Shown here: one piece after another, positions 8,091 to 35,035 of the stretch
Layout of the letters: the number at the start of each line of letters is the position of its first letter
Numbering within the stretch: position 1 is the first letter of the stretch
Notes under the pieces: generated by a model
Databases searched by the model: none
Told to the model about the DNA's origin: nothing
The model's input: the letters and a program-made list of their open reading frames with translations, nothing else
Source: Verrucomicrobiota bacterium
GTDB taxonomy: Bacteria > Verrucomicrobiota > Verrucomicrobiia > Opitutales > Opitutaceae
Direction: 5' to 3'
NCBI GenBank assembly: GCA_016222805.1
Contig: JACRQG010000018.1
Span: 124,001-188,000, forward strand
DNA length: 64,000 bases
Program-made: the position numbers and the translations under genes

Positions 8091-8249
8091 GGACGCAGGG
8101 GAGGTGGGACCGCGGAGAATGGGAAACCCCGTCCCATCGTGGCGAGTGCATTGTAGCCCTGCTCCGGGGTGGGTTCGGCGACCCAGAGGCGCAGTCAGAC
8201 CGACCGCCGCCGTACCGCCTGCCCCGGTCGTCCGCGGCGGACAGAGCAG

Positions 8250-11654: not shown

Positions 11655-11758
11655 CCGCCTGCACCTCCGATCACGAGCCGTCGGGCTGGCCGGGCCGGAG
11701 CCTTGGCACCGGCCGGCGCCTTGCGGATGAGGAAGACGGCCGGGCGCGATTCACTCAT
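11651..11758 (-). CDS. 35-codon ORF resembling a TIR N-terminus (fragment or leader)
   Basis: A short frame opens with ATG and encodes MSESRPAVFL followed by a basic, Ala/Pro-rich tail. Its TGA overlaps the ATG of the next gene as ATGA. The first ten residues resemble the downstream protein (MSEGSKAVFL), but the SYAS core of TIR domains is absent. It may be a remnant of a duplicated TIR gene start or a small coupling leader. Expression is unproven. Confidence 0.35.
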   Translation of the reverse strand: MSESRPAVFLIRKAPAGAKAPARPARRLVIGGAGG

Positions 11759-11797
11759 GCGTGCCTATGGCGGAACCGGACAACGCGGGTGGCAGGC

Positions 11798-14700: not shown

Positions 14701-15052
14701 TGGCGCGATAGATGGCCAGCTTGATCTGCTCGGCGGGCGGCGGAGACTCGCGACCGTAGTCGAGGCGGACGTACACCGGACAGTACCCTTCAGGCCGGAG
14801 GCGGGGCACCAGGCCGGCCCGCAGGATCGAGGTTTTGCCGAGGCCGGACTGGCCGAAGAGGATGGTGAGCAGCTTGCGCTGCACCCGTCGCCCGAGTTCG
14901 CCGACCTCGTCGTCACGGCCATGGAAGTACGCCCGGGTATCCTCGGTGAACGAGGCGAGGCCGAGCCAGGGATGCTGCGCATCGATCGCGCCGGGAGCCA
15001 GGGCGGAGGAGACCGGCGCGGTCATCGGGGGGCGGGGGGACTCGGCGGGCAT
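11798..15052 (-). CDS. STAND-class NTPase with TM helix and TPR-like C-terminus
   Basis: 1084-residue protein with an N-terminal nSTAND-type P-loop NTPase. The entry motif is YFHGRDDEVGELGRR. Walker A GQSGLGKT is at 67-74 and Walker B LLIFDQFEEIF at 158-168. A winged-helix-like region follows around 340-410 (LRVEER, VELTHDVL). Next come a charged coiled-coil-like stretch, one membrane helix (about 454-475) and a long alpha-helical TPR-like region (about 490-1084). STAND proteins act as signal-triggered oligomerising switches in immunity and regulation (family knowledge). It has no effector domain of its own; the SIR2-TIR protein encoded 8 bp upstream is the obvious partner. Start at 15052 is given; an in-frame ATG at 15025 is a credible alternative. 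Confidence 0.85.
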   Translation of the reverse strand: MPAESPRPPMTAPVSSALAPGAIDAQHPWLGLASFTEDTRAYFHGRDDEVGELGRRVQRKLLTILFGQSGLGKTSILRAGLVPRLRPEGYCPVYVRLDYGRESPPPAEQIKLAIYRATEAAGHWTRAGIATAGESLWEFLHHRDDVLRDAEGRTLVPLLIFDQFEEIFTLAQGDDHGRQRAAEFIEELADLVENRAPRALEARLEADEAGLEKYDFSRSDYRILIALREDYLAHLEGLRARMPSVTQNRMRLARMTGAQALAAVTGPGGSLVNDEVAAAIVRFVAGGAEVERAEVEPSLLSLVCRELNNTRLAQGEATISTALLAGSRDTILSEFYERTLADQPAGVRAFLEDELLTDSGYRESIAEERVRKGLAAAGAAENTLALLIDRRLLRVEERLDVRRVELTHDVLCGVVKASRTLRHEREALEQAGRELEAQREREAATRRSLNRARLAAAVAGVLMLGAAGSAVFGWVNLRRAAAAEIRASRERDRAQQSRAEAEKLVSFLLDDLYTELEPTGKIEIVSGLARRALAYFSALPPEFHDARSERFRAIALSRLGLSLSQQGKTLEAEDPLREAEELFRRLADQGDRSPETIVGHTAVVRQQSRNAYLQNRAGLSVELGRRAVTLVQPAAAAAGAPAFIRLEHGRSTMNYGFILLRERQHAESIEALRQALGIFEKLRDEPQHRQRARVQYAEACAWLSEALRRNGQVADAVEILRAAVPIANEAVEAEAGNLGALRSRALLRSRQAQAAMDDFQYREAEKLALATAADWTEFLRFDAANDTARNNRRVARGVAAAAQWRIGEFESAIRLSRENAREIIAAGGSPSTVRGAAFQTEVLDAIEADLGRVTDVDAAIAEGNRMRALAVAQVDPENYFRFVTPLWNENQRSELLLRTGRPDEALTVARSVAGKFRTLNPVAGSEKETHRYLLEGNARVQTEALLRLRRWAEAAQAARDLVRGRPALGDTSPGTLDDLATDRAIAAVALARHGDKAEARELLSAAARSNRERRAAGADDHASRTQTAWIALGEGLLAATPAEQRRWFAQGISEVNGMAPQPQRLRSVRELRETLEAELARVAP

Positions 15053-15060
15053 GGCAGGGA

Positions 15061-16482
15061 TCAGCGAACCCGCGAGCCGAACAGCTCGGCCAGCCGGCGG
15101 GCGAACTCCGGGGTGACCGTCCCGCCCGGCAACCGCGAAAAGTGCACGGCCTTGAACTTTTCCGGCACGAGCGCCTCGGCCTCGGTGGTGCCGTCGATGC
15201 AAACCGGCAGGATGAACACGGCCCCCTCGGCGATGTTGCGCGAGCGATCCACCGCATAGCTCCACTCCCGCCGGAAATAGGCTTCGAGGCGCCGCTGGGT
15301 CGTGGCGGACACCACCGGCACGAAGAAGGCGCAGCGCCCGATGTTCTGGCGGATTTTGCGATCGTAGTCGTCGCCGCTCTCCAGCCGCTCCATGTCGAAC
15401 CAGGTGGTCACCCCCGCGGCGTCGAGCCCGGCCTTCAAGCGCTGCACCGCCGGCAGGTCCTCGCGCGCATAGCTGATGAACACCGCGTTCTCCGGCATTT
15501 CGCGCTGCGGCGGCAGGAACCGCTGCGGTTCCAGCGCGGGCGCCGCCATCGCCGCGGAACCGGCGTCCCGACCCCGCCGCCGCAGCCAGCGTTCGTGGAG
15601 CTCGGCCACAAACCGTTCCGCACCGGAGTACACGCGCGTGCGCACACTCACCTGCTGCAGGAAGCTCATCAGCCGGGAGTCCTTCGCGGACTGGCTGTCG
15701 GCCACGACTTCACCCACGTCACGGGGATCCGACAGCCGGCGGCGCTTCGCCATGCGCAGGAACAGCCGGGCAAGCCAGTTGGAGAAGTTGCTTCCGATCA
15801 GCAGCAGGTGGTTGTGCTCCAGTTCGTGGAAGAGCTTCTCCGGCGTGAGGTGTTCGCTCTGCAGAGCGCAGACAAACTCCAGGGTGTCCTCGTCCGAGAT
15901 CACGTAGGTCGGCGAGGCGGAGAGGCGACCGAGCAGGTGATAGACGACCGGCCGCTGTTGCCGCTCCCGCTCGACCGTCAGGTCGGCCACGCGGTTGGGC
16001 GCATAGGCAATCACCTCCGTCGAGGCGGCCCCGGCGAACCGCTCCAGGTTGATCGCCTGTTCGAGCAGGGGATCAAACGTGGTGGTGACGAAGAGATCGA
16101 AGTCGGTGATCTGGGCGAGCTGCCGCAGGGCCGGCGGCGGGGCGAAGTTGGTCTCGCGCAGGATGGTCCGCAGGCGCGTGTACGCCTCCTCCCTGCGGCC
16201 GCGGGCGGCCAGGTACCAGCAGACCACATCGTTGAGGGTGGGCGGTGGCGGCAGCTGCCCGAGGTCCACGCCGAGGCGCGCCGCCAGGCGCTCGGCGAGC
16301 CAGTCGTAGAGCAGGCGGGAGCCTCCCTCCGTCTCGACGCGGAGCAGCTCCGGCCCGAGAATCGGGATGACGCGCTTCTCCTCGATGAAGTTGAGCAGAT
16401 CCTCCCACGCGTCGTCGTCAAACGGCGGGACATCTGCACCGGATCCGGCGAAGCCGCCGGTCGCGTCGTGGGGCGAAACCAT
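15061..16482 (-). CDS. SIR2-like - TIR fusion protein
   Basis: 473-residue protein with two NAD-linked folds. The N-terminal SIR2-like domain (about 25-300) starts RVIPILGPELL and contains FDLFVTTTFDPLLEQAI and VVYHLLGRLSASPTYVISDED. A TIR domain follows (about 333-473; AVFISYARED, TTWFDMERLESGDDYD), with Glu406 in YFRREW at the expected catalytic position. In the SIR2 part, the usual TTN(Y/F)D signature reads TTTFD and the GAG-S loop is replaced by ILGPELL. It may therefore sense rather than hydrolyse NAD (inference). It is the first gene of the minus-strand set and lies 8 bp before the STAND gene, so probably co-expressed. The ATG at 16482 is chosen because homology begins shortly after; the frame extends to 16578. 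Confidence 0.88.
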   Translation of the reverse strand: MVSPHDATGGFAGSGADVPPFDDDAWEDLLNFIEEKRVIPILGPELLRVETEGGSRLLYDWLAERLAARLGVDLGQLPPPPTLNDVVCWYLAARGRREEAYTRLRTILRETNFAPPPALRQLAQITDFDLFVTTTFDPLLEQAINLERFAGAASTEVIAYAPNRVADLTVERERQQRPVVYHLLGRLSASPTYVISDEDTLEFVCALQSEHLTPEKLFHELEHNHLLLIGSNFSNWLARLFLRMAKRRRLSDPRDVGEVVADSQSAKDSRLMSFLQQVSVRTRVYSGAERFVAELHERWLRRRGRDAGSAAMAAPALEPQRFLPPQREMPENAVFISYAREDLPAVQRLKAGLDAAGVTTWFDMERLESGDDYDRKIRQNIGRCAFFVPVVSATTQRRLEAYFRREWSYAVDRSRNIAEGAVFILPVCIDGTTEAEALVPEKFKAVHFSRLPGGTVTPEFARRLAELFGSRVR

Positions 16483-16570
16483 GTGGGTGGGTCTCGGGGT
16501 GGGTGGGAGCACGTAGGGATACGGGGTCTGTTCCGCTGCACAACCCAGAAGATCGATCGGGGTCCGGGGA

Positions 16571-16678
16571 GGGCGCATCTGTCGGTCGGCGGTTGTAGCC
16601 GGCCGCGGTGAGGCCGGCCGCCGGGGTCACCGCCCCCGGCTACACCAGACAAATGACCGCCAACCGGCAGATGCGCCC
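16571..16678. repeat. 108-bp nested palindrome in the divergent SIR2-TIR/SLOG promoter region
   Basis: Outer arms begin GGGCGCATCTG at 16571 and end CAGATGCGCCC at 16678. They pair over about 23 bases with only two mismatches, both allowing G-U pairs in RNA on one strand. The right arm carries about 11 extra bases. Inside them, TGTAGCCGG (16594-16602) matches CCGGCTACA (16636-16644) perfectly, and CGGTGA pairs with TCACCG further in. It could be a REP/MITE-type element, a structured RNA or a regulatory cruciform. Confidence 0.75.
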
Positions 16679-16745
16679 GTCCGGGGCAGGCCGGCGGCTT
16701 CGCGGTTGACAGACGCGGGAGCCTCGCGGAGAGACTCCCGCCCGC

Positions 16746-18230
16746 ATGGCCGACCCCGACCAACTGCCCGTGTTTCACGTCGTCGGGTTCACCGGCCACC
16801 GACAGTTGCGCGACCCCGCCGCGGTGGAGCGGACCCTGGGCGAAGTGCTGGGAGGGTTGCGGGCGGAGGAGGGTGTCGAATGGCTCGCGCTCTCCTCGAT
16901 CGCCGAGGGGGCCGACATGCTGTTTGCACGCACCGCGCTGCGCCTCGGGCTGGGCTGGGAAGCGGTGCTCCCCCTGTCCCCGGCGGAATTCCGCGCCGAC
17001 TTCGATCCCGCGCGGTGGCGCGAGGTCGAGACACTCCTGGCCGAGGCGGAACATGCGCGGGTGATCGGAGAGCGGACGGCCCGCGAAGATGCCTATCTCG
17101 ACTGCGGCATGGAAACGGTGAATCACTGCGACGTGCTCCTCGCCGTCTGGAACGGCGAGCCCTCGCGCGGCCGCGGCGGGACCGCGGAGATCGTGGCCTA
17201 CGCCCGCGAGATGGGGCGGCCGGTCATCATCATCGATGCCAACGACCTCTCGGTGCGGCGCGAGAACTTCGACCGACTCAAGGTGGGAGACCGGCATCTG
17301 GCCTATTTCAACCAGTTGCCGACCAGCCCGCGGGCCCCGGTGCACGACAGCCCCGACCGCGGACGATCGCTCGTGCAGGACTTCCAGGCCAAGGTCGACC
17401 ACGCCGCCACCTCGCACGCGCCCCACGATCGCCGCCTCGTGGCCATCACCCTCTGGCTGCACACCGCCGCGACGATGTTGGCGACGGCGGGACTGGCCTT
17501 TCCGGTGCCGCTCGCCGGCCTGCCGTGGTTGAAACTCAGCTGCCTGCTGGTGGCCATCGGCGTGGCCCTGCTCGTGCGCCACCGCCGGGAACAGCACAAG
17601 TGGGTGCGCTGCCGGCTGGCCGCCGAGATCACCCGGAGTGCGTTGGCCACCTGGGGACTGCCCCGTTCGCTCCGGCTCTTCGATGATTTCGACTGGGCGG
17701 GGCTGGAGCCCCTGCGCCGCTCGCTCGACATCCTGCACCGCCGCGGCGCCCGGGCGCAGGCCGCGAGCTTTGACGAGTTCAAGCAGCGCTACCTGCACGA
17801 GCGCATCGACGGCCAGCTCGCCTATTTCGCGGCCCGGCAGCAGGAGGCCGTCCCGGTGCTGGAACGCCTGCGCTGGGGCTTCTTCGTCTGTTCGCTCCTG
17901 GCGCTGTGCTTCACCGCCGCCCATGCTTCGCACACCGCCCTGCCGGAACTGGCCGCCCCCGCCTGGGTGGAAACCTGGGTCTACGCCTTCGGCCCGGTCG
18001 TGCTGCCGGTCCTCGCCGCCACCTTCATCTCACTGATTCACGTGCACGACCTCCATCGGCGCGTGGCGCGTTACCGCGAACTGCAGGTGCGTCTGACCGC
18101 GGCCCGCCGGGAGGCGGCGTTCGTCCAAACCTGGGGTGCGCTGGAACGCGTGGTGGCCAAAGCCGAGCGCGCCCTCCTCCAGGAAGTGTTCGAGTGGCAC
18201 TCGATCACCAGTTTCTCCGAAACCCACTGA
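16746..18230 (+). CDS. SLOG-like domain protein with four TM segments
   Basis: 494-residue protein. The N-terminal Rossmann-like region (about 8-170) has features of the SLOG/LOG superfamily: VVGFTGHR (12-19), a GADMLFA helix and a glycine-rich GRGGTAEIV loop (142-150) that would contact a nucleotide phosphate. Two pairs of membrane helices follow (about 231-252 and 259-277; 376-396 and 411-432) with a charged helical segment between. This resembles SLATT-type membrane effectors associated with nucleotide-sensing SLOG domains in bacterial conflict systems (Burroughs/Aravind families). Sensing of a nucleotide or NAD-derived signal followed by membrane perturbation is inference. It is divergent from the SIR2-TIR/STAND operon across 263 bp holding the nested palindrome. 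Confidence 0.8.
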   Translation: MADPDQLPVFHVVGFTGHRQLRDPAAVERTLGEVLGGLRAEEGVEWLALSSIAEGADMLFARTALRLGLGWEAVLPLSPAEFRADFDPARWREVETLLAEAEHARVIGERTAREDAYLDCGMETVNHCDVLLAVWNGEPSRGRGGTAEIVAYAREMGRPVIIIDANDLSVRRENFDRLKVGDRHLAYFNQLPTSPRAPVHDSPDRGRSLVQDFQAKVDHAATSHAPHDRRLVAITLWLHTAATMLATAGLAFPVPLAGLPWLKLSCLLVAIGVALLVRHRREQHKWVRCRLAAEITRSALATWGLPRSLRLFDDFDWAGLEPLRRSLDILHRRGARAQAASFDEFKQRYLHERIDGQLAYFAARQQEAVPVLERLRWGFFVCSLLALCFTAAHASHTALPELAAPAWVETWVYAFGPVVLPVLAATFISLIHVHDLHRRVARYRELQVRLTAARREAAFVQTWGALERVVAKAERALLQEVFEWHSITSFSETH

Positions 18231-20842: not shown

Positions 20843-23800
20843 TCAGTTGTCCGCCACTGCCGCGGAAGAGCGCGCCGGGAACTCCGCCAGATCGGCGTCG
20901 ACAATCACCCTGAACCCAACGTCAACCACTCGTTGGAAAGGAAGATAAGCGAGCCGGAAGCCGGCCGCGGCTCGAAAAGGTCGGTCGCGCCACGAACCAC
21001 CGCGGACGACGCGACGCCCCTCAGCCTCGACCTGGTTTCTGCCGTCGTCGTCCCGGTAGGGATAGTCGCGGTAGAGGGATCGCGTCCATTCGGCCACGTT
21101 GCCGTGCATGTCGAACAGTCCCCACCGGTTGGCGTTGAAGCGCCCCACCGGGCCCGAGACCAGCACACCGTCCCGGTAGCGGTCATCCTTCAGGGTGTAG
21201 TCATTCGCGAAGGGCGGATTGGGCAGGGGCACGTGTGCCGTGCGAAGGTAGTTGTTGGCCGCGAATTCCCGCGTCGTCAGGTCGGAGAGGTTTGCATGCA
21301 AGGAGAAGTCCGCGGTGGCGGCGCCAAAACCGTAGGTCGTCACAGTACCGGCGCGGCAGGCGTACTCCCACTGCGCCTCGGTCGGGAGGTCCACGGCCAG
21401 GCCCGTCCGGCGCGCGAGCCACGCGCAAAAGTCCCGGGCCCGGTGCCACGACACCCGCGCGACCGGCTGCGCTCCGTCGTGCAGGGCGTAGCCTTCCACG
21501 CCAAACGCATAGCCCCGCAGGTGTTCCCGGCCCGTGTCGTGCTCCGGATCAAAGCGGGCATACTGGGCATTGGAGATCTCGGTCGTGCTCATCCAGTAGC
21601 CGCGGGGCATCTTCACGGTGTGCACCGGCTGCTCGTCCGGCTGATCCCCGCCCATTGGGAAGCTTCCCGGCGGAACGTAAGTGAACGTCAGCCCCACGCC
21701 GTCGCCGAGTTCGATCCGCTGCAGCGGCCGGTTGCGCTCTCCGCTGCGGGGCGGCTCGGCCGGCCGAGCCGCCGCGGGCGCCACGGCCACCTGCCGTCGG
21801 AAGCGCTCGGGAGACACGGCTGGCGGCAGCGGACGAGAGGCGCTCTCGAGGTGAAACTCCTCCAGGCCGGCAAAGCGCCGGCGTGCCTCCGCCCGGCGCT
21901 CCTCGCAACGGCGCGCCTCTTCCCCGGCGATGCTGCCCCAGTCTCCGTGGAACGGGGCGTTGAGATCGATCCAGGTCACCAGGCGATCCCACTGTTCGGC
22001 GTCGAGCTTCACGCCGTGGTGCCCCTTCCGCAGCATCTGCACGAGTTCGCTGGTGTCGGCATGGAACTCCATCGGGCTGAGGAGACCGATGTTGCTCTCG
22101 ATGCCGGCGGCGTGGACGTAGGGGTAGAGGTTGGCGTAGGCGACCGAGAACTTGCCCCCCAGCTTGGGGTTCTGGCTGCCGGGCAGGATGCTGTGCCAGC
22201 CTTCGAGCGCGACGTCGCCCCGCAGGTTCAGCGTTGGCCGGCCCCGGTGGGTGGTCACGCCGTTGTGACATTCCACGCAGGCCGCATCGAGCACCGGCTG
22301 CACCTCGTGCGCGAACGAGAACCCGCGCGTCGGCCCGCGCCATGGGGTGATTTCCGCCGGACTGACGGAAGCGACCCGTGCGGGTTGCGCCGCGGGCGTC
22401 GTGCGCCGATCCTCATGGCAGCCGACGCAGGAGACCACTTCACCCGGCATGCCGACCAGCCAGCTGCGCATGAGTTGGAGGGCCTTGTCGTCGCGGTCGA
22501 GGGGCTGGAGCGAAAGAGGGGTGTTGGCGGGAATCCGGAAGAACACCGAACCATCCTCCTGCACCGGCACGGTCCCGATGATGCGCCGCATGTCCCAGGG
22601 CCCGTTCATCCCGATGGTGCCGTAGGTGCCGCCGAGATTGCGGTAACCAAATACATACGTGAAGAGGCGGAGCGCCTTTACTTCGCCGCGGGGAATGCCC
22701 ACGAGCCCCGGGCCGGCATGGATGTCCGCGATGAAGACACTCGCGTCCGAACGCTCCGGGTTGACCCGGTCCACGGGCTGCGGCGGCACGGGGCGCGGCG
22801 CCAGCGGAACCGGCTCGAGCAGCGCCATGCCCGGTTCCTCCCGCAGCAGCAGCAGGTTGTCGAAGATGTCGACCAGATACAGCCCCCAGGGGGCGTCCGG
22901 ACCCGGCTGGCACGAGACCAGGAAATACCGGCCGGAACCGGTTCCGTCGGCCCGCCCCAGCGGCCAGGGGTGGAGAAAACGCGGCCAGGAGTCGTCCGCG
23001 AGATTGTCGCGCACCACACGGGCGACCTTGCGCCCGTGGCCGGGGATGCGCTGCACCGCTCCGCCGGTCTCGGTCTGCCCGAGGGCGTTGTCGAACAGCA
23101 CGAGTTCGCCCATGCGCGCCAGGCCGTGGTGCCCCGTCACGATTCCCGCCACCTGCGTGGGCCGGCCCGGGATCGGCCGGGCGTAGAACACCGCGTTGGG
23201 CCAGTAGCCGTTGCTGCCATAGAACGCGGTCTGGCCGGTGCCATCCGGATTCATCTGGAAGAGGCGGCGCCCGTGGGCGTGGGGAATGTCCGCGTACTCC
23301 CATCGCAGATACAAGATGCGCCCGTCCTCCATCACCACCGGCCCCCAGTCGTGTTCCTGGTCGAAACACAGCTGGCGCACCCGGCCCTCCGGACCGAGGC
23401 GGAAGAGGTTGGCCACCGCCGTCTGGCCGTGGACACACGGCACCGCCACCATCGCCGCCGTCGACATGAAGAGGACATCGCCCCGCGGCAGGTAGCAGGC
23501 GTCGTAGTTGTCCACGTCGGGTCCGAGATCCGGCGTCACCTGCCTTAGGGATCCGGCCGGGGCGCCGTCGGCCGCGAGGGAGAGTTCAAACACCTGCCAG
23601 GGCCGGCCGGGCGTCGATTTCGACAGCAGCAGGCGGCGGGCATCCCAATGCAACTCGAGATCCCCGGCGAAGGTCCCATCCGCCGGGCGGTACAGCGTGC
23701 GGCGCGGCACCGTCGCCTCGCGCAAATCCACGGCGGCAATCTCGTTGTCGTAGCCGTCCCGGGGCAGGCTGCAGTTGCTCGCCCAGTTGGTCGGCAGGCC

Positions 23801-24166
23801 GAGGCGCGCGGCGCTCCGTCGCACATGGAGCACCTCGCGGAAGTCGAGCAGCGGGTTGGCGAGCAGCGCGGCGCGCTGCAGCTCCAGCCAGGCCTCCGCG
23901 GCCGGCACCGCCGCCGGGTCGCCCCGGGCGAGGCGATCGCGCAGGCGGGCGAGATCCGGGTCCAGGGCCGCGAGGCGCCGGCGAAAACCAGCCGCGTCAT
24001 AGCGATCGGGAAACGTGGCCGCCAGGTCCTCGATCGCCCGCTGCAGCGCCGCGGGGTCCACCAGCCGGAGCCGGCGCGTCAGCACCCCGGTCTCGGCTGC
24101 GCCGGCGCACCCGGCCAGCACGAGGCAGAACCCACGCAGAACCAGGGCACGCAGGAGCGTTCTCAT
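20843..24166 (-). CDS. HZS-alpha-like lipoprotein with CxxCH motifs fused to FGE-like (SUMF1/EgtB) domain
   Basis: 1107-residue predicted lipoprotein; the signal ends in a lipobox, LAGC with Cys20. A large N-terminal region resembles the hydrazine-synthase-alpha-like beta-propeller (about 110-560; YDNEIAAVDL, VLFMSTAAMVAVPC, ILYLRWEYADIPHAHGR). Two heme-type motifs follow, CVGCH (580-584) and CVECH (630-634), the second in a PSCyt-like context (VQPVLDAACVECHNG). The last ~250 residues form a formylglycine-generating-enzyme-like domain (VPPGSFPMGGDQPDEQPVH, LPTEAQWEYACRAG, GLFDMHGNVAEWTRS). The paired cysteines used by true FGE after RGGS are missing (RGGSWRDRPFRAAAGFR), so sulfatase activation is unlikely. 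Such fusions occur in Planctomycetes/Verrucomicrobia; the substrate is unknown. The ATG at 24166 begins the signal peptide. Confidence 0.85.
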   Translation of the reverse strand: MRTLLRALVLRGFCLVLAGCAGAAETGVLTRRLRLVDPAALQRAIEDLAATFPDRYDAAGFRRRLAALDPDLARLRDRLARGDPAAVPAAEAWLELQRAALLANPLLDFREVLHVRRSAARLGLPTNWASNCSLPRDGYDNEIAAVDLREATVPRRTLYRPADGTFAGDLELHWDARRLLLSKSTPGRPWQVFELSLAADGAPAGSLRQVTPDLGPDVDNYDACYLPRGDVLFMSTAAMVAVPCVHGQTAVANLFRLGPEGRVRQLCFDQEHDWGPVVMEDGRILYLRWEYADIPHAHGRRLFQMNPDGTGQTAFYGSNGYWPNAVFYARPIPGRPTQVAGIVTGHHGLARMGELVLFDNALGQTETGGAVQRIPGHGRKVARVVRDNLADDSWPRFLHPWPLGRADGTGSGRYFLVSCQPGPDAPWGLYLVDIFDNLLLLREEPGMALLEPVPLAPRPVPPQPVDRVNPERSDASVFIADIHAGPGLVGIPRGEVKALRLFTYVFGYRNLGGTYGTIGMNGPWDMRRIIGTVPVQEDGSVFFRIPANTPLSLQPLDRDDKALQLMRSWLVGMPGEVVSCVGCHEDRRTTPAAQPARVASVSPAEITPWRGPTRGFSFAHEVQPVLDAACVECHNGVTTHRGRPTLNLRGDVALEGWHSILPGSQNPKLGGKFSVAYANLYPYVHAAGIESNIGLLSPMEFHADTSELVQMLRKGHHGVKLDAEQWDRLVTWIDLNAPFHGDWGSIAGEEARRCEERRAEARRRFAGLEEFHLESASRPLPPAVSPERFRRQVAVAPAAARPAEPPRSGERNRPLQRIELGDGVGLTFTYVPPGSFPMGGDQPDEQPVHTVKMPRGYWMSTTEISNAQYARFDPEHDTGREHLRGYAFGVEGYALHDGAQPVARVSWHRARDFCAWLARRTGLAVDLPTEAQWEYACRAGTVTTYGFGAATADFSLHANLSDLTTREFAANNYLRTAHVPLPNPPFANDYTLKDDRYRDGVLVSGPVGRFNANRWGLFDMHGNVAEWTRSLYRDYPYRDDDGRNQVEAEGRRVVRGGSWRDRPFRAAAGFRLAYLPFQRVVDVGFRVIVDADLAEFPARSSAAVADN

Positions 24167-24276
24167 CAGCGGCCATGCTGGCAGCCCTCCGGAAAAACGC
24201 GATTCCTTCTTCCTGCGGGCAGCGCCGCCCGCACGCGGCCTCCCGGCCGGGTGCCGCCGGTCCGCCGCGCCCACCC

Positions 24277-24870
24277 TTACTTGCCCAGCTTGCGCAGCGC
24301 CTTGTTGATCTTCTCCAGATCGCAGACCTCGGGATGGTAGTCGGGCCCCAGCCACTCCAGCCACTCGCGCCCCAGGTCCGTGTTGGGTTCCTTGATACAG
24401 GCCAGCATGTCGTGGAAGGCCTCCAGGCCGCCGCAATCCTCCGGCGGGCCGGCGCGCTCCCCCGCAGTGCAGACCGGGTAGTGCAGGCCCTTTTCCAGCG
24501 CGCCGATCTTCTCCACCTTGAGATCGACCTGCCAGCCCTCGCCAAAATGGTAGCCGTAGGAGAAGCGTTCCCGGTGCTCAAGATCGAGATCCGCCAGGGC
24601 CACGTCGCGATCGTCCTCGATCGTGAGTTCCTCGCGCCGCAGGGGATTGCCGAACCGCAGGTCGTCGAGGTTGAACGCGTGGGTCTGGTAGTCGAACCAG
24701 TCGAACGCAATCTGGATGGTGTCGTGCAATCGGGAGAGCCACATGGACTCGCGCACGAGGAGGCGGCGCCAGATCCGGGGTTGGCAGGCGACCACCCGGA
24801 GTTCGAGCGTAAAGACGCGCTCGGGGGGACGCTTGACCCGCGAACCTCGGCCTTCGTGAAGCGAAATCAT
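24277..24870 (-). CDS. Plasmid pRiA4b ORF-3-like family protein
   Basis: 197-residue cytosolic protein of the pRiA4b ORF-3-like family. Its landmarks are VFTLELRVVACQPRIWRRLLV, SRLHDTIQIAFDWFDYQTHAF, YGYHFGEGWQVDLKVEKI, YPVCTAGERAGPPEDCGG and the acidic C-terminal region. The family is widespread, with no established biochemical activity; its two conserved cysteines (in VCTAG and EDCGG) suggest a structural metal site (inference). The start at 24870 matches the family N-terminus; the frame is open far upstream because it runs opposite other coding DNA. It lies 107 bp downstream of the TonB receptor gene and 110 bp upstream of the HZS-like gene, all on the minus strand. Confidence 0.85.
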   Translation of the reverse strand: MISLHEGRGSRVKRPPERVFTLELRVVACQPRIWRRLLVRESMWLSRLHDTIQIAFDWFDYQTHAFNLDDLRFGNPLRREELTIEDDRDVALADLDLEHRERFSYGYHFGEGWQVDLKVEKIGALEKGLHYPVCTAGERAGPPEDCGGLEAFHDMLACIKEPNTDLGREWLEWLGPDYHPEVCDLEKINKALRKLGK

Positions 24871-24977: not shown

Positions 24978-27110
24978 CTAGAAGCGAAACGTGACCGTCG
25001 CCCCCACCTGGCGGGGATCGGCCCGGTCTTCGTAGCGTCGCTCGGGATAATCCGGATCTTCGTTCCCGAAGAAGAACACCCGTTTTTCGTACCGCACATC
25101 GAGCAGGTTGCGGCCCCAGACCGCGACCGTCCACGCGCGACCCCAGGACCAGCCGAGCGTGGCGTTCAGGACCCGGAAGGCGCGGCGCGCCTCGTTCTGG
25201 TTGTTGGAATCGTACTGCCGCGCGCGTCCCACCTGTTCGATTCGTCCAAAGAGTCCGGTGTCCCCGCGATACCGCAGGGCGAGGGTGTGGCCGTGGCGCG
25301 GCGTGTTGGCCAGGGCGCGGCCCCCTCCGGCGTGGCCGTTCGGGAGGACAAAGGGCTGCAACTCGGACTCCATCCACGCCGCCGACGCCTGCGCGGACCA
25401 GGCCCGGTTGAAGGTCCAGGTGCCGGAGGCCTCCGCCCCGGAGACGGACGCCTTCCGGCCGTTGGCGGTGAAGAAACGGTAATTGCCGCCGAAGCCCGCC
25501 GAGTCCCGCACCTGCGGGTCGCGACGCTCGAGGCGGAAGGCCGTGAACTCCCCGACCAGCCGGCGGTCCGCCCAACTCCCGCGCAGGCCGGCCTCGAAGT
25601 TCCACAGCGTCTCGGTGGCGTAGGTCAGCGGGTCCGCCGGAGGGTTGATCCGGGCATCGACATTGATCCCCCCGGCCTTGTATCCACGCGTCACCGACAG
25701 AAAGGCCAGGTGCTGCGGAGAGAGGTCGTGTTCGAGGCTGAGCTTTCCCCCGGGCAGCGCACCGCTGAAGCCCGGCCGGAACCGCACCACGGGGTCATGG
25801 GTGCCACGGGCCTTGCGGTAGCGGGTTCGCACGCCTTCCCCCGCGAGATCCACCCATTCGGCCCGCAAACCCACGATCAGCCGCGTGTGCGGGGTCAGGT
25901 CCCTCCCTCCCTGGCCGAACAACGCCCCTTGGGTGGACTCGTAGCTGGTCGTGAGGCCCCGCAGGTTGCCCGGGTCTTCATTGGTGTAGGCGCTCGCCTC
26001 GGTCGTGCGCGCCAGATGGGCGCCGAGGGTCCAGCGATCGAGTCCGGGCAGGGCGCCGCGGGCCACCGCCGAATCCAGCCGGAGTTCCTCGCTGAACACC
26101 TCGCGCCGCCGGCGAAGGTCGCTGAACCCGTCATAGGAGGCCGCCGTCCAGTCGTCGTCGTAGCTGTACACCGAATCGACGCGGCTGGCCTGCGACACGG
26201 TCGTGAAGCGCGCGGCCGCGCCCCCACGGTAGGTTCCCCGGAGGCTGGCGGCGGCGGAGCGCTGTTCGTCGCGGCCAGGGCGGTTGCTGAAGGTGTTCCG
26301 CCCGTTGTTGTCGAGGGCGAACTCGTCGTAGCCGTTGGCCACCCGTGAGTGCAGGAGGGCGCCTTCCCAGCGCCAGGCCCCACCCGGGTTGGCGGTAACC
26401 CGCAGCCGCGCCATGCGTTCATCCCGGGCATTGGTGTCGCGCTGCCAGGTGAGGTTGCGGCGGAAGCCGTCGCTGCGGTGCTGGTGGACGGCGAGCCGCA
26501 TCATCAACGACTCCGGATTCGCCCCTGTGCTCAGAGGACCTCCCACCGCGAATCCACCCGATCGCAGCGCGTCTCCGCCGGCCGAAGCCTCGACTTGCCC
26601 CGTCCAGAACGGCGTGGGGGCAGCGGTGACCAATCGTACCAGGCCCCCCGCGGCGTTGGCGCCAAAGGCCCCGGCCTGGGGGCCGCGCAGGACCTCCACC
26701 TGCTGCACGTCGAAGCTGCCCGCGAGTGTCCCGAGGCCGGTGAAGTCGAAGTCATCCACGAGAAACCGCACCGCGGAGTCGGGAGTTTCACCCTCGTACT
26801 GGGAGTTCTCCCCCACCCCGCGAATTTGAAAGTACCGCGGCCGCGACGTACCCCCGCTCCAGGTCAGGTTGGGGATGCCATCGACGAGATCGCCGAAGTG
26901 GCGCACCGCCGCCTCCTGCAGCCATCCCTGGTCGTACACACTCACGCTCGCCGGAATCCGGTCCAGGGGCGACTCCCACAAGTCGGACGTGACCCGAACA
27001 GGGGCGAGCGAGACCGGAGGTGCCGGATGGGGCGCCGCCGCGCGAGCCATTGGCAAACGGACGCAGCCGAGGGCCAGGACGAGGAGGGCGAGGAGGGAAG
27101 GGAATCTCAT
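24978..27110 (-). CDS. TonB-dependent receptor under TPP riboswitch control
   Basis: 710-residue outer-membrane receptor. A signal peptide (about 1-25) is followed by a TonB-box-like APVRVTSD and a plug domain (DRIPASVSVYDQ, RYFQIRGVGENSQYEG, VEVLRGPQAGAFGANAAGGLVR). A 22-strand-type barrel follows, ending in the aromatic C-terminal VTVTFRF needed for assembly. The leader carries a canonical THI element (27185-27286), so expression is predicted to fall when cytosolic thiamine pyrophosphate is high. The likely cargo is therefore thiamine or a phosphate or precursor of it. TPP-regulated TonB receptors are known in Bacteroidetes (OMR1-type). No thiamine gene is adjacent in the window. ATG 27110 begins the signal peptide. 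Confidence 0.93.
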   Translation of the reverse strand: MRFPSLLALLVLALGCVRLPMARAAAPHPAPPVSLAPVRVTSDLWESPLDRIPASVSVYDQGWLQEAAVRHFGDLVDGIPNLTWSGGTSRPRYFQIRGVGENSQYEGETPDSAVRFLVDDFDFTGLGTLAGSFDVQQVEVLRGPQAGAFGANAAGGLVRLVTAAPTPFWTGQVEASAGGDALRSGGFAVGGPLSTGANPESLMMRLAVHQHRSDGFRRNLTWQRDTNARDERMARLRVTANPGGAWRWEGALLHSRVANGYDEFALDNNGRNTFSNRPGRDEQRSAAASLRGTYRGGAAARFTTVSQASRVDSVYSYDDDWTAASYDGFSDLRRRREVFSEELRLDSAVARGALPGLDRWTLGAHLARTTEASAYTNEDPGNLRGLTTSYESTQGALFGQGGRDLTPHTRLIVGLRAEWVDLAGEGVRTRYRKARGTHDPVVRFRPGFSGALPGGKLSLEHDLSPQHLAFLSVTRGYKAGGINVDARINPPADPLTYATETLWNFEAGLRGSWADRRLVGEFTAFRLERRDPQVRDSAGFGGNYRFFTANGRKASVSGAEASGTWTFNRAWSAQASAAWMESELQPFVLPNGHAGGGRALANTPRHGHTLALRYRGDTGLFGRIEQVGRARQYDSNNQNEARRAFRVLNATLGWSWGRAWTVAVWGRNLLDVRYEKRVFFFGNEDPDYPERRYEDRADPRQVGATVTFRF

Positions 27111-27147
27111 GGTCGGTTGGCCCGACCTGCGGCGGACTCCCTGCAAA

Positions 27148-27168
27148 GGGGCGCCGGAACCGCGCCCC
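27148..27168 (-). terminator. Candidate expression-platform hairpin of the TPP riboswitch
   Basis: On the minus strand GGGGCGC and GCGCCCC form a perfect 7-bp stem with a 7-base loop, followed by TTT. It lies between the aptamer and the ATG, 37 bases before the gene. The U-run is short, so attenuation is only a suggestion. Overlapping GGCGCC repeats just upstream could form a competing helix. Confidence 0.45.
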
Positions 27169-27184
27169 ATGGCGCCTTTCGCGA

Positions 27185-27286
27185 CGCCTGCTGTTTCCTT
27201 CGCCGGAATGATCCGAACAGGTTCAAGGGTCGAGCAGCCGATCGCGCCGCAATCTCAGCCCTCCGCGGAGGACACCCCTACAGGCG
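27185..27286 (-). ncRNA. TPP riboswitch (THI element)
   Basis: Read on the minus strand, the leader contains the THI-box order of conserved blocks: AGGGGTGTCC, GGAGGGCTGAGA, then ACCCTTGAACCTGTTCGGAT and CATTCCGGCGAAGG. P1 closes with perfectly complementary CGCCTG (27286-27281) and CAGGCG (27190-27185). The CUGAGA core and the ACCCUUGAACCUG block are diagnostic for thiamine pyrophosphate binding. The aptamer ends 74 bases before the TonB receptor ATG. Confidence 0.95.
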
Positions 27287-27418
27287 AGGCGCAACGAAGG
27301 CGCTTCGTTGCCCCAGCGCAAGCGGAAACACTCGTCGGGGCGGACCACCCCGCACCGGAGATTCCCGGCCGGCTCGCACGAACCGCCTCACCGCCGGCCG
27401 CGGGTCGAGAAGTCCCGC

Positions 27419-29331: not shown

Positions 29332-32300
29332 ATGACCGGATTTCGCCCGCCAACTTCGATCCGCCTCGCGATTCGAACCCTTGCCATCCTGGCGGGCGCC
29401 ATGGGTTTGCAGGCGGAGCCGGTCATCACCGAGTTCCTCACCGCCAACACCACCAGCCTCACGGACGAGGACGGCGCGCATTCCGATTGGATCGAACTCT
29501 TCAATCCGGACAACGCCCCGTTCGACCTGAACGGGTGGTACCTGACGGACAGCATCTCGAACAAGACCAAGTGGCAGTTTCCGGCCGTATCCCTTCCGGC
29601 TGGGGGCTACCTGATCGTCTTTGCGTCCGACAAGAATCGCCGGGATCCGACGAAACGGCTCCACACCAACTTCGGGCTCGACGACGACGGGGAGTACCTC
29701 GCGCTGGTCAGACCAGACGGTTCGGTCACCTCCTCGGAGTTCGCGCCCAAGTACCCCCGGCAGCAGGACAACGTCTCCTACGGGTTTCCCGGCAGTGCGA
29801 CGTCCGGCGCGCGTGTGTTTCTGCTAAAACCCACACCCGGTGCCGCCAATTCGGCCGCGAGTCCGGTCGGGTTGACCGAAACGGTCACGTTTTCGCGTCC
29901 CGCGGGTCCGTTCTCCAGCACGTTCTCCCTCACCCTTTCAGGGGCCGGCGCCAGCCAGCAGATTCGCTACACGACCACTCCAGCCTCGCGCGGGGCCACT
30001 GCCCCGGAACCGACGGCGTCTTCTCCGGCGTACGCCGCTCCCTTCTCGATCACCGGCGCCACTGTCGTGCGGGCCGCGGTGTTTTCCGGCGATGGCTCGA
30101 CGCGCGGGCCGGTGCGCACGGTCTACTACTCGAAGGCGGGGGCCTCCCTCGCCGCCGCCACGAGCACCCTCCCGGTGCTGGTTCTCGACAGTCTGGGCTC
30201 GGGCCCCCTGACCAAGGACAACCTCGACCACACCAGCTGGGTCGCCGTCTATCCCGCCCGTTCCGGCGGCGCCCCGCTTTTCAGTGTCGCCCCCGAATTG
30301 GCGAGCCCGATCTCCCTCACGGTCCGGGGCTCGTCGTCGGCGGAGTTTCCCAAGAAGGGCTACAACTTCCGGTTTGAGGATGAATTCGGCCACGCCGGTG
30401 CGCCCGAATTCCTCGATCTGACCGAACACGAGAAGTGGGCCCTGGTCGCCCCATGGAAGTACGACCTCTCGTATCTCAACAACCCGATCGTCTACGAATT
30501 CTCCCGCCGTCTCGGTCGCTGGGCCCCCCGCACCCGCCTGGTTGAGGGCTATTTCAACACCGACGGCGGCGACGTCGAGGCCAACGACTACGCCGGCATC
30601 TACCTGGTGACCGACCGCATCGAAGTGGATCGGGAGCGGGTCGACCTCGCCAACCTGACCCCGACCGAGCTGACGGCTCCCGATGTGACCGGCGGGTATA
30701 TCCTGAAGATTGATACAAAGGACGCCGACGAAATCGGCTGGACGACAAGCCGCGGCGTCCCCGGCGGCGGCGCCGCCATCGTGCTCGTCTCCCCTTCCGC
30801 GGCCGAGGTCGCCCCGGCGCAGCTGTCCTACCTCCGGGACTACGTCCAGCGGATGGAAAACGCGCTCGTCGCCAGCCGCGACTCCGGCTGGGCCCAGCGC
30901 ACCTACCTCGACTATCTCGATCGCGCCGCCTGGGTCGACCATCACCTGCTCAACACCTTTGTCGCCAATCCCGACGCGCTGGTGCGAAGCGCGTATTTCA
31001 CCAAGAACAAGAACGGGCGAATCGCCGCGGGTCCGGTCTGGGACTTTGACCGCGCACTCGGTTCCTATTGGGACGAGCGCTCCTACCGGCACGACGTCTG
31101 GGTCGGCGTGGGAGCCGCGGATGTCTGGCGGACTGGCTGGTGGGGGATTCTGGTCCAGGATCCCGAGTTCCTCCAGGACTGGATCGACCGGTGGCAGGGG
31201 CTCCGTCGCACCGAGCTGGCCACGGCGAAACTCGGCCTCCTCGTCGACAACCTCAGCGCGGGCCTCACGACCGCCGCCGCCCGGGACGCCGGCCGCTGGC
31301 CCGACAACGCGAGTCCCTACGGAAGCTACGCGGCCCAGGTCGCCCGGCTGAAGACATGGCTGGCGCAGCGCGCGGAGTGGATCGATCAGCAGTTCCTGGC
31401 CGCGCCGACCGTGACGTCGTCCGGGTCCAACCTGATCTTCACCCCGGCCCCCGGCGCCCAGCTGGCCTACACGCTGGACGGCTCGGATCCGCGTTCCCTC
31501 GGAGGGGACATCGCCCCCAACGCCACCGTGAGCGCCTCCGCGGTCACGGTCCCGGCCGGTTCCAACATCCATCTCCGCAGCTATGCCGCGGGGCGGCAGT
31601 CCCGCACCCTCGTCGATGGCAGTTTTGCCCCGGACACGCCCTGGAGCTCGGCCGTCGGCGGGCCTTCGTCGTCTCCCCTGGCCCCGGCCGCCCGGCTCGT
31701 CAACCTCTCGACCCGCGCGCAGGTGGCGGCGGGCGACAACTCGCTGATCGCCGGTGTGGTGGTGGCCGACACGGAGGCCAAGCGCTATCTCGCCCGTGGT
31801 ATTGGTCCGGCGTTGGGAGCCTTTGGAGCGACGGGCTTCGTGCCGGACCCGCAACTCACCGTCTTCAGCGGGACCGGCCGGGAACTGGCGCGCAACAACG
31901 ACTGGGAGCAGGGCACCGATGCCGCCAAGCTTCCTTCCCACTTTCGGGCGGTGGGAGCCTTTTCCCTTCCGGCGGCCAGCCGCGACGCCGCCCTCACGAG
32001 TGAATTCACCGCCGGATCCTACACCCTTCAGGTTTCGACCGCCACCAGCCAGGCCGGCATTGGCCTCGTGGAACTTTACGAACTCGATGGCAACGGCCGC
32101 ACCCTGAACCTCTCCACCCGCGCCCAGGTACGCAGCGGCGACGGCGTCTTGATCGGCGGCTTCGTGGTTTCGGGTCCTGCCTACAAGCGGGTCCTGATCC
32201 GCGCCATTGGCCCCACCCTGACAGGTTTCGGCGTCAGCGGAACCCTGCGTGATCCCGTGCTCACCCTCTACTCCGGACAGACCGTGGTCGCCACCAACGA

Positions 32301-32493
32301 TCGCTGGGAAGCGGTGACCAACCTCTCCGCCCTCTCCGCGGCAAGCCGCCGGGTGGGCGCCTTTGCCCTCGCTGCCAATAGTGAAGACGCCGCGCTCTTT
32401 ATCACCGTGCCACCGGGGGCCTATACCGTGGAGGTGAAGGGCAAGGACGCCGCAGAAGGGGTTGCCCTGTTGGAAGTCTACGAAGTTCCATGA
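29332..32493 (+). CDS. Secreted LTD - CotH kinase-like protein with two C-terminal modules
   Basis: 1053-residue exported protein. The signal peptide ends near LQAEP. A lamin-tail domain (about 29-160; VITEFLTANTTSL, DWIELFNPDNAPFDLNGWYL) follows, then a beta region and a CotH-family domain (about 280-700). CotH landmarks include SLTVRGSSSAEFPKKGYNFR, NDYAGIYLVTDRIEVDRERV and GPVWDFDRALGS, the DFD probably binding metal and ATP. A chitobiase/Fn3-associated segment (TLDGSDPRS) precedes two copies (about 787-922 and 923-1053) of the module with RAIGPTLTGFGV, ending LLEVYEVP. Some CotH proteins are protein kinases of spore coats, but secreted bacterial ones are uncharacterised. Start ATG 29332 begins the signal peptide. 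Confidence 0.85.
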   Translation: MTGFRPPTSIRLAIRTLAILAGAMGLQAEPVITEFLTANTTSLTDEDGAHSDWIELFNPDNAPFDLNGWYLTDSISNKTKWQFPAVSLPAGGYLIVFASDKNRRDPTKRLHTNFGLDDDGEYLALVRPDGSVTSSEFAPKYPRQQDNVSYGFPGSATSGARVFLLKPTPGAANSAASPVGLTETVTFSRPAGPFSSTFSLTLSGAGASQQIRYTTTPASRGATAPEPTASSPAYAAPFSITGATVVRAAVFSGDGSTRGPVRTVYYSKAGASLAAATSTLPVLVLDSLGSGPLTKDNLDHTSWVAVYPARSGGAPLFSVAPELASPISLTVRGSSSAEFPKKGYNFRFEDEFGHAGAPEFLDLTEHEKWALVAPWKYDLSYLNNPIVYEFSRRLGRWAPRTRLVEGYFNTDGGDVEANDYAGIYLVTDRIEVDRERVDLANLTPTELTAPDVTGGYILKIDTKDADEIGWTTSRGVPGGGAAIVLVSPSAAEVAPAQLSYLRDYVQRMENALVASRDSGWAQRTYLDYLDRAAWVDHHLLNTFVANPDALVRSAYFTKNKNGRIAAGPVWDFDRALGSYWDERSYRHDVWVGVGAADVWRTGWWGILVQDPEFLQDWIDRWQGLRRTELATAKLGLLVDNLSAGLTTAAARDAGRWPDNASPYGSYAAQVARLKTWLAQRAEWIDQQFLAAPTVTSSGSNLIFTPAPGAQLAYTLDGSDPRSLGGDIAPNATVSASAVTVPAGSNIHLRSYAAGRQSRTLVDGSFAPDTPWSSAVGGPSSSPLAPAARLVNLSTRAQVAAGDNSLIAGVVVADTEAKRYLARGIGPALGAFGATGFVPDPQLTVFSGTGRELARNNDWEQGTDAAKLPSHFRAVGAFSLPAASRDAALTSEFTAGSYTLQVSTATSQAGIGLVELYELDGNGRTLNLSTRAQVRSGDGVLIGGFVVSGPAYKRVLIRAIGPTLTGFGVSGTLRDPVLTLYSGQTVVATNDRWEAVTNLSALSAASRRVGAFALAANSEDAALFITVPPGAYTVEVKGKDAAEGVALLEVYEVP

Positions 32494-33835: not shown

Positions 33836-35035
33836 TCAACGGTCGCCCCACACCCCTGCCGATTCGGAGCCCATGGAGCCAGCGCTCACCTCGGAGGGGA
33901 CACCCGTCACCATCGGGTAACGGTATTTCCGACCCTCGTAATTGCGCAGGACCACCGCCTCGTCCGAAAGCGACTCCACGTACTCGGGGTTGATGGGGAC
34001 CTTCCCGCCACCCCCCGGTGCATCGATGACAAACTGGGGCACCGCATAGCCCGTGGTGTGCCCCCGCAGCGCCCGGATGATCTCGATTCCCTTGCGGACG
34101 TCCGCCTTGAAGTGGGACCCGCCGGTAATGAGATCCATCTGGTAGAGGTAGTACGGCCGCACCCGCATGCGAAGGAGGCGATGGACCAAGGCCTTCATCA
34201 CCTCGACGTCATCGTTGATACCCTTGAGCAGCACGCTCTGATTTCCGAGCGGCACCCCGGCAAATGTCAGTCTTTCACAGGCGGCGCGTAGTTCGTCGGT
34301 GCATTCCTTCGGATGGTTGACGTGGATGCTCATCCACACCGGCCCGTGCTTCTTGAACACCTCGCACAATTCCGGCGTAATGCGCTGGGGTAGGAAAACC
34401 GGAATGCGCGATCCGATCCGGATGAACTCGACATGCTTGATTGCCCGGAGCCGTGAGATGAGCTGCTCCAGCTTGCGATCGGACAGCAGCAGCGGATCGC
34501 CACCCGAGAGGAGGACATCCCGCACCTCGGGATGGTTTTCGATGTACTGCAGCCCCTGTTCGTACTCCGGGTGAAAATTGTAGTCCTGGGCGTTGGAAAC
34601 CAGGCGGCTCCTCGTGCAGTAGCGGCAATACGAGGCACAACGGTCGGTGACCAGAAAGAGCACCCGGTCCGGGTACCGGTGCACCAGTCCCGACACCGGG
34701 GAGTGCTCATCCTCTCCCAGCGAATCGAGCGCCTCCCCTTCCGACACCACCATTTCATCCGCCCTGGGAATCACCTGCTTGCGGATCGGGCAGTCCGGAT
34801 TCGAACGATCAATGAGGTTGAAGAAGTAGGGAGTGATGGCCAGCGCGAGCTTCTGGTTGGCGTGTTCACACCCGGCCTTTTCCTCCGGAGTCAGCTCCAT
34901 GAGCTCCTCCAGCTGCCGCGTCGTGGTCAGCCGGTGCTTGAGCTGCCAGGCCCAATCGCGCCACTCGTGCTCGGGGACGTGCGTCCATAGACCCTGGCCC
35001 CGGAACCAGGCGGCGCGATCTTCGGTGTAAGACAT
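33836..35035 (-). CDS. kamA: KamA-family lysine 2,3-aminomutase (radical SAM)
   Basis: 399-residue radical SAM, PLP-dependent aminomutase. The Fe4S4 motif CASYCRYC gives Cys133/137/140; SGGDPLLL follows as the SAM-binding GGD element. The PLP lysine is Lys345 in APGGGGKVPI. Asp301 (YQMDL) and Asp338 (VIDAP), which bind the amino group of lysine in characterised enzymes, are present, so interconversion of alpha- and beta-lysine is likely. The C-terminal CxCxxC zinc cluster of clostridial enzymes is absent. Beta-lysine could serve as an osmolyte precursor or for EF-P modification; no epmA or efp is in view. It is divergent from carA (178 bp between starts). Confidence 0.9.
   Translation of the reverse strand: MSYTEDRAAWFRGQGLWTHVPEHEWRDWAWQLKHRLTTTRQLEELMELTPEEKAGCEHANQKLALAITPYFFNLIDRSNPDCPIRKQVIPRADEMVVSEGEALDSLGEDEHSPVSGLVHRYPDRVLFLVTDRCASYCRYCTRSRLVSNAQDYNFHPEYEQGLQYIENHPEVRDVLLSGGDPLLLSDRKLEQLISRLRAIKHVEFIRIGSRIPVFLPQRITPELCEVFKKHGPVWMSIHVNHPKECTDELRAACERLTFAGVPLGNQSVLLKGINDDVEVMKALVHRLLRMRVRPYYLYQMDLITGGSHFKADVRKGIEIIRALRGHTTGYAVPQFVIDAPGGGGKVPINPEYVESLSDEAVVLRNYEGRKYRYPMVTGVPSEVSAGSMGSESAGVWGDR

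Follow-up and report, generated by a model that had tools for sequence, protein, structure and literature searches.

A TPP riboswitch in front of a predicted thiamine receptor, and a candidate NadR-like thiamine kinase, in Opitutaceae

A TPP riboswitch aptamer and a TonB-dependent receptor gene lie together in the window (the whole stretch of 64,000 nucleotides of Opitutaceae DNA analysed here), and we consider it likely that the riboswitch controls, most probably at translation initiation, a receptor by which thiamine, or thiamine in phosphorylated form, enters a bacterium unable to make it. At low TPP, the aptamer strand GCUCGACC would pair with the leader strand GGUCGGGC and leave the start open. 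The receptor would then deliver thiamine to the periplasm, a PnuT-type permease would move it inward, a NadR-like kinase would convert it to TMP and ThiL would convert TMP to TPP, which would in turn shut off the receptor: with TPP bound, the aptamer would retain its strand, the leader strand would fold locally and the start would be closed. With less assurance, we lean towards a wider proposal, namely that the Opitutaceae hold an unrecognised thiamine kinase, a NadR-like P-loop clade beside a PnuT-type permease that makes TMP from thiamine for ThiL and comes and goes with the TPP-switched receptor, and that the leader RNA reaches into the first nine codons, so that it holds the signal-peptide start M-x-L-P-T-R-I-L in two receptor families.

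The TPP element and the receptor in the window

Both the TPP element and the TonB-dependent receptor proposed in the first-pass annotation are real and lie on the minus strand, as the Infernal match of the one and the Plug and beta-barrel domains of the other attest (Table 1). RF00059 matches the element (27289-27178) over model positions 1-105 of 105 with 52.4 bits and an E-value of 1.2e-9 in a search of 371 bases, or 6.0e-9 in a whole-genome search. This score is below the RF00059 gathering score of 54.3, which is a curator's cut-off rather than a structural feature; because of it, a default Rfam scan of the window passed over the element and returned tRNA only, and scanning on E-value recovered it. 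The Infernal check that had been proposed therefore gives a clear match by E-value, and fails solely at the Rfam default cut-off. A textbook element with a closed P1 had been claimed. The conserved letters CTGAGA and GAACCTG are indeed intact, but "textbook" is too strong for a sub-gathering score and a P1 that in its canonical register consists of CUGU/ACAG alone (27280-27283 with 27191-27194), adjoining a C.C clash; a shifted register, CGCCUG/CAGGCG, could provide an alternative P1 pairing. The distance of 74 bases to the ATG holds if P1 ends near 27186, whereas the covariance match ends 67 bases before the ATG at 27110. TPP elements of same-genus homologues score 53.9 to 62.2 bits, and the window's element is ordinary beside those of its family relatives. 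Among the 150 of 340 first-look candidates that were scored, no second TPP element was found in the 7.9-Mb assembly.

Table 1. Features of the receptor locus, in window coordinates
Feature	Coordinates	Strand	Basis
TPP riboswitch aptamer	27178..27289	-	full-length Infernal match to RF00059
Aptamer strand GCTCGACC, proposed anti-sequestor, can pair with leader 27120-27127	27228..27235	-	8 bp uninterrupted; role inferred
G+C-rich hairpin GGGGCGC/GCGCCCC with TTT after it, resembling a terminator or simply structural	27148..27168	-	predicted fold
Outer helix of AGGGAGTC (27135-27142) with GATTCCCT (27099-27106), encloses the start codon	27099..27142	-	8 bp including G-U
Hairpin GGTCGG-GCCAA-CCGACC, ends directly before the start codon, proposed sequestor	27111..27127	-	predicted fold
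TonB-dependent receptor, 710 aa, predicted outer-membrane thiamine receptor	24978..27110	-	Pfam domains, predicted structure, homologues behind TPP elements

The receptor carries a Plug domain (PF07715) and a TonB_dep_Rec_b-barrel domain (PF00593), both over the Pfam cut-offs. Its predicted structure has a pTM of 0.85, and a Foldseek search matches solved TonB-dependent receptors, the nearest of which are siderophore receptors; neither the fold search nor a sequence search of solved structures narrowed the substrate. The ORF listing offers a further in-frame ATG at 27170, upstream of 27110, and in the aligned leaders the start of the relatives' receptors aligns with 27110, not with 27170. Of the neighbours checked, neither the PhoD-like phosphatase upstream nor the PRiA4_ORF3-like protein downstream is evidently connected with thiamine, and no thiamine gene adjoins the receptor within the window. 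One could read the element as a decayed or chance match in front of a siderophore receptor, as its score under the Rfam cut-off and those nearest solved folds would allow. We regard this as highly improbable, since the element has kept its conserved letters and is found at the same place across genera and, by motif, in proteobacterial homologues.

Elsewhere, positions 6180-18230 of the window look, judging by their predicted proteins, like a defence-type island. On its minus strand this region encodes two TIR-plus-TPR proteins (6180-8090 and 8253-11654) and one that joins SIR2-like and TIR parts (15064-16578); on the plus strand, a protein at 16746-18227 matches SLATT weakly, under the Pfam cut-off. 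Also encoded in the window are a protein of 1,166 aa that combines a formylglycine-generating-enzyme-like domain with a hydrazine synthase alpha middle domain (20846-24343), one large protein with CotH kinase, lamin-tail and Fn3-associated domains (29332-32490), and a lysine 2,3-aminomutase-like radical SAM protein (33839-35035).

Thiamine genes and TPP loci across the family

At an E-value of 0.001, the assembly (51 contigs, 95.6% estimated completeness) gives no match to ThiC, ThiE, the TMP-TENI domain, TPK or ThiK, absences that are provisional because the assembly is in 51 contigs. ThiL is present and over its cut-off (C23:63050-63874). There is thus no visible route for joining precursors or for direct pyrophosphorylation of thiamine, while the step from TMP to TPP is possible, and salvage of intact thiamine or TMP is therefore to be expected. 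This bears out the earlier suggestion of salvage, which had been drawn from the lack of a biosynthesis gene alongside the receptor. The assembly has a single PnuC-family permease (C46:257483-258019), directly followed by an AAA_28/NadR-like kinase (C46:258052-258588). With a switch that senses vitamin B1 in front of it, and in a bacterium that seemingly cannot produce the vitamin, the receptor very probably serves as this bacterium's importer of vitamin B1.

In 150 genomes of the family, 141 have a TPP match, 126 have one over the cut-off, and 48 have a ThiC match. Of the TPP matches, 150 places were listed and 149 of these examined (all but the one in G074), and 111 loci were read. Sixty of these 111 precede homologues of the window's receptor (family A) and 33 precede a second family of TonB-dependent receptors of about 785 aa (family B), which gives no BLAST match to family A at 1e-3. 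A receptor thus stands behind 93/111 TPP loci, which supports the prediction, first made from the riboswitch class, that the window's receptor is a thiamine receptor. The element precedes thiM at ten of the 111 and thiC at three (the latter assigned from ThiC profile coordinates), and five, cut by contig ends, have no assigned target. By coordinates, 41 TPP elements, the three read thiC loci included, lie 391-645 bases before a thiC profile match on the same strand. Family B receptors (e.g. at L042, L046 and L106) have the same kind of TPP leader and apparently alternate with the window's receptor between genomes.

Receptor and ThiC largely exclude each other: ThiC is found in 6/93 receptor genomes versus 42/57 other genomes of the family. 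Within the window's own genus, four genomes including that of the window have receptor, permease and kinase without ThiC; two ThiC genomes (G006 and G139) have a TPP element before thiC and neither a PnuC match nor the kinase, and one (G081) has permease and kinase without a TPP match. The missing ThiC is also what one would see in users of HMP, and the TPP elements before thiM in some relatives would likewise fit a receptor that imports thiamine precursors (HMP, amino-HMP or thiazole), not thiamine itself. Uptake of precursors is nevertheless improbable here, because without ThiE they cannot be joined, and ThiC accompanies ThiE in 46 of the 51 genomes in which ThiE is clear. In three genomes of genus g3 (G051, G080 and G103, the last 65% complete) a TPP element stands before thiM and ThiC gives no match; of the three, G051 and G080 retain ThiE and may require HMP.

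The permease and the NadR-like kinase

If thiamine itself is what the receptor imports, as we favour, a kinase that makes TMP would be needed ahead of ThiL, and the NadR-like protein is predicted to fill this place, working like a thiamine kinase. The profiles name the pair otherwise: the permease is over the NCBIfam cut-off as PnuC, and the kinase matches NadR models below cut-off (the C-terminal part of TIGR01526, 94 versus 341 bits). For this reason the main rival is that permease and kinase serve the salvage of nicotinamide riboside and have nothing to do with the receptor, a reading that we find doubtful and that is also favoured by the related pairs outside the kinase clade in ThiC genomes without the receptor. 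The family kinase resembles the ribosylnicotinamide kinase of NadR in its AAA_28 domain, its sub-cut-off profile match and its adjoining PnuC-family permease. It differs in that it stands alone: at about 180 aa it is the kinase part only, without an NMN adenylyltransferase domain, and hence not a bifunctional NadR. A further difference is that the presence of its clade tracks the TPP receptor. It also falls outside the ThiK and TPK families, its domain being AAA_28, and the genome gives no TPK or ThiK match anywhere.

This tracking argues against nicotinamide riboside salvage. The kinase occurs in 89/93 receptor genomes versus 9/57 others when G012, G057 and G083 are set aside, with clade membership of genomes absent from the tree assumed from an identity of at least 47%; permease and kinase occur together in 88/93 versus 12/57. 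Three of these 12, the ThiC genomes just set aside, have kinases outside the clade. None of the 42 ThiC genomes without the receptor has the kinase, and all six genomes that have both ThiC and the receptor do. Because shared descent makes these counts non-independent, the comparison inside genera is the better guide, and in the six genera that show both states (g1, g2, g19, g30, g46 and g48) the kinase is present in 15 of 16 receptor genomes and in 2 of 14 others. As for the exceptions, nine kinase genomes have no recorded receptor: five have no TPP match, two have a truncated locus, and in two the TPP place was not read.

In the kinase tree, a clade of 27 (support 96/91) includes the kinase of the window's genome together with seven whose pair lies near a TPP receptor; the tree covers 36 family kinases, nine of which are not in this clade. 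The PnuC tree sets the permeases of these seven near-receptor genomes in a separate clade from the group of 20 to which the window's belongs, without settling how the two group. By coordinates, six genomes (G008, G019, G048, G101, G110 and G120) have permease and kinase divergently arranged and immediately adjacent to the TPP receptor, and in a seventh (G089) they are divergent about 3.6 kb from it with two genes between; the six adjacent pairs speak against nicotinamide riboside salvage as well. So does the substitution in G032, the single TPK genome among the 150, in which TPK runs convergently to the TPP receptor and has a sodium:solute symporter after it. G032 and G070 make up genus g32, in which the receptor is present with no kinase, no permease (G032 has just a 4.9e-4 match) and weak ThiL-like matches. 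In G032 the supply of TMP by the kinase would have been made needless by TPK; in G070, a genome 75% complete, a TPK match was not found. The remaining receptor genomes without the kinase are 72% (G087) and 70% (G138) complete. A search of the open-access literature brought up no publication that links a NadR-like kinase with thiamine.

Beyond the family, the comparison took in the best 80 of 235 named relatives of the receptor, with TPP-like elements sought by a simple motif search, not by a covariance model. The motif precedes the receptor in 69 of these 80, and three of the 11 misses have fewer than 30 bases before the match. Among the same best 80 of 235 are 31 proteobacterial loci, with the TPP-like motif before the receptor in 25/31 and a PnuC-family gene after it in 24/31; within the stretch compared, none of the 31 has a match to the NadR-like kinase. 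An APH/choline-kinase-like gene, confirmed by Pfam in the two tested, comes after the permease at the loci of Paraferrimonas, Simiduia, Thalassotalea, Thalassolituus and Oceanobacter, and at those of Methylophaga and Thiomicrorhabdus the gene after the permease is on the other strand. In proteobacterial TPP operons the genes for the receptor and PnuT are separated by an ORF of about 88 aa, seen at 6213-6470 in L193 and with comparable ORFs at L194, L195, L200, L203, L205, L208, L214 and L218; the one tested has no Pfam match, and we take these small proteins to resemble YkoF-type thiamine-binding proteins.

While proteobacterial receptor operons often carry an APH-type kinase after PnuT, the window's family has the NadR-like kinase, usually elsewhere in the genome. 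The position after PnuT thus varies, being taken by TPK, an APH-type kinase or, in the present case, a NadR-like kinase. Bacteroides thetaiotaomicron is reported to have OMthi (BT2390) behind a TPP riboswitch together with pnuT-tnr3; genetics support both transporters in thiamine uptake, PnuT transports thiamine heterologously, single deletions were without effect, and the transcripts of both changed little with thiamine (PMC5613172). By arrangement, that system is like the present one in having a TonB-dependent receptor behind a TPP riboswitch and a PnuT partner, and it differs in having biosynthesis genes and TPK (tnr3), neither of which was found here (PMC5613172). By analogy, the NadR-like kinase and ThiL would seem to stand in for its TPK. 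Omr1 is reported to lie near TPP riboswitches in SAR86 and Flavobacteriales (PMC10881298), and OMR1 is likened to our receptor by this gene context, a TonB-dependent receptor near a TPP riboswitch, and not by sequence. The receptor studied here likewise lies directly behind a TPP riboswitch, an arrangement conserved with homologues at the 60 family A loci. The kind, OMR1/OMthi, is thus known already, and new are these members, the switch platform and the predicted kinase. The original description of OMR1 is said to be the work of Rodionov.

Leader pairings at the start codon

Among the literature matches listed, no publication deals with TPP riboswitches in Opitutaceae. The leaders of families A and B were aligned in 78 rows, with L051 and L071 (genus g32) left out and with other gap classes (genera with longer aptamers) excluded. 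Near the start, these leaders commonly have a strand like GATTTGGGTCGGGC, and their coding start commonly resembles ATGCAACTCCCGACACGAATC, so that families A and B alike have a peptide of the type M-x-L-P-T-R-I-L. For several leaders, folding predicts the stems GAUUUG/CGAAUC, GUCGG/CCGAC and GCAU/AUGC, the last of which contains the start codon. Since RNAalifold on the 78 leaders gave no start hairpin, pairing was tested directly on 77 of them (L077, with no ATG at the expected place, left out) and on 65 control genes. In these 77 leaders, which are related by descent, pairing between the 45 bases upstream of the ATG and the first 33 bases of coding sequence has a mean z of -2.02, 40/77 being under -2, versus a mean z of 0.04 and 2/65 in the controls. 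For pairing of this leader region with the aptamer strand around CTCGACCC, the mean z is -1.95 (38/77 under -2), versus -0.03 (2/65) in the controls. A swap test for covariation was weak, own arms being better in 48/77 leaders. Both pairings use the same leader strand and are thus mutually exclusive, which suggests, from predicted pairing, that control is exerted at the start codon by competition between the two.

In the window itself, the proposed sequestor hairpin likewise excludes the pairing with the anti-sequestor strand of the aptamer, because both use 27122-27127. The window's leader folds no better than shuffles, its leader/CDS pairing is not better than shuffles either (z 0.17), and its aptamer/leader pairing has a z of -1.39. 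Its strand GGTCGGGC keeps 8 bp with the aptamer, with CCGACC directly before the ATG as local partner; the window's copy of the start hairpin is rearranged relative to that of its relatives, and is not significant alone. With forced helices, the aptamer/leader form comes to -98.1 and the form with P2 and the start hairpin to -93.2 kcal/mol; without forcing, the minimum is a different fold, at -105.1 kcal/mol. In this modelling, the energy of TPP binding could tip the balance between the two forced folds.

The G+C-rich hairpin followed by TTT (Table 1) might instead be an intrinsic terminator, such that TPP acts on transcription. A stable hairpin of this kind followed by T is predicted in the window and similar ones in many relatives. 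We nonetheless consider termination unlikely, as many relatives have a T run that is short and interrupted and the start-codon pairing is enriched over the 65 control genes. Control of initiation, as preferred here, has a counterpart in E. coli thiC, where bound TPP leaves the RBS and start codon hidden, and where an alternative long-range anti-P1 pairing frees the start without TPP (PMC5234074). The proposal shares with thiC the sequestration of the start codon with TPP and its release by alternative pairing (PMC5234074). The competitor in thiC is an anti-P1 stem (PMC5234074), whereas we propose the aptamer strand around P2, with the first nine codons as the 3' arm of the sequestor in the window's relatives.

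So what would these findings mean for the Opitutaceae? A receptor left generic by annotation is given a predicted substrate, and the TPP-switched receptor largely replaces ThiC, even inside genera. If the kinase proposal is true, a NadR-family kinase acts on thiamine, even though profiles name the pair as nicotinamide riboside salvage. If the start-codon proposal is true, a TPP riboswitch uses coding sequence as its sequestor and so constrains the signal peptide. Both would bear on the life of vitamin B1 auxotrophs.
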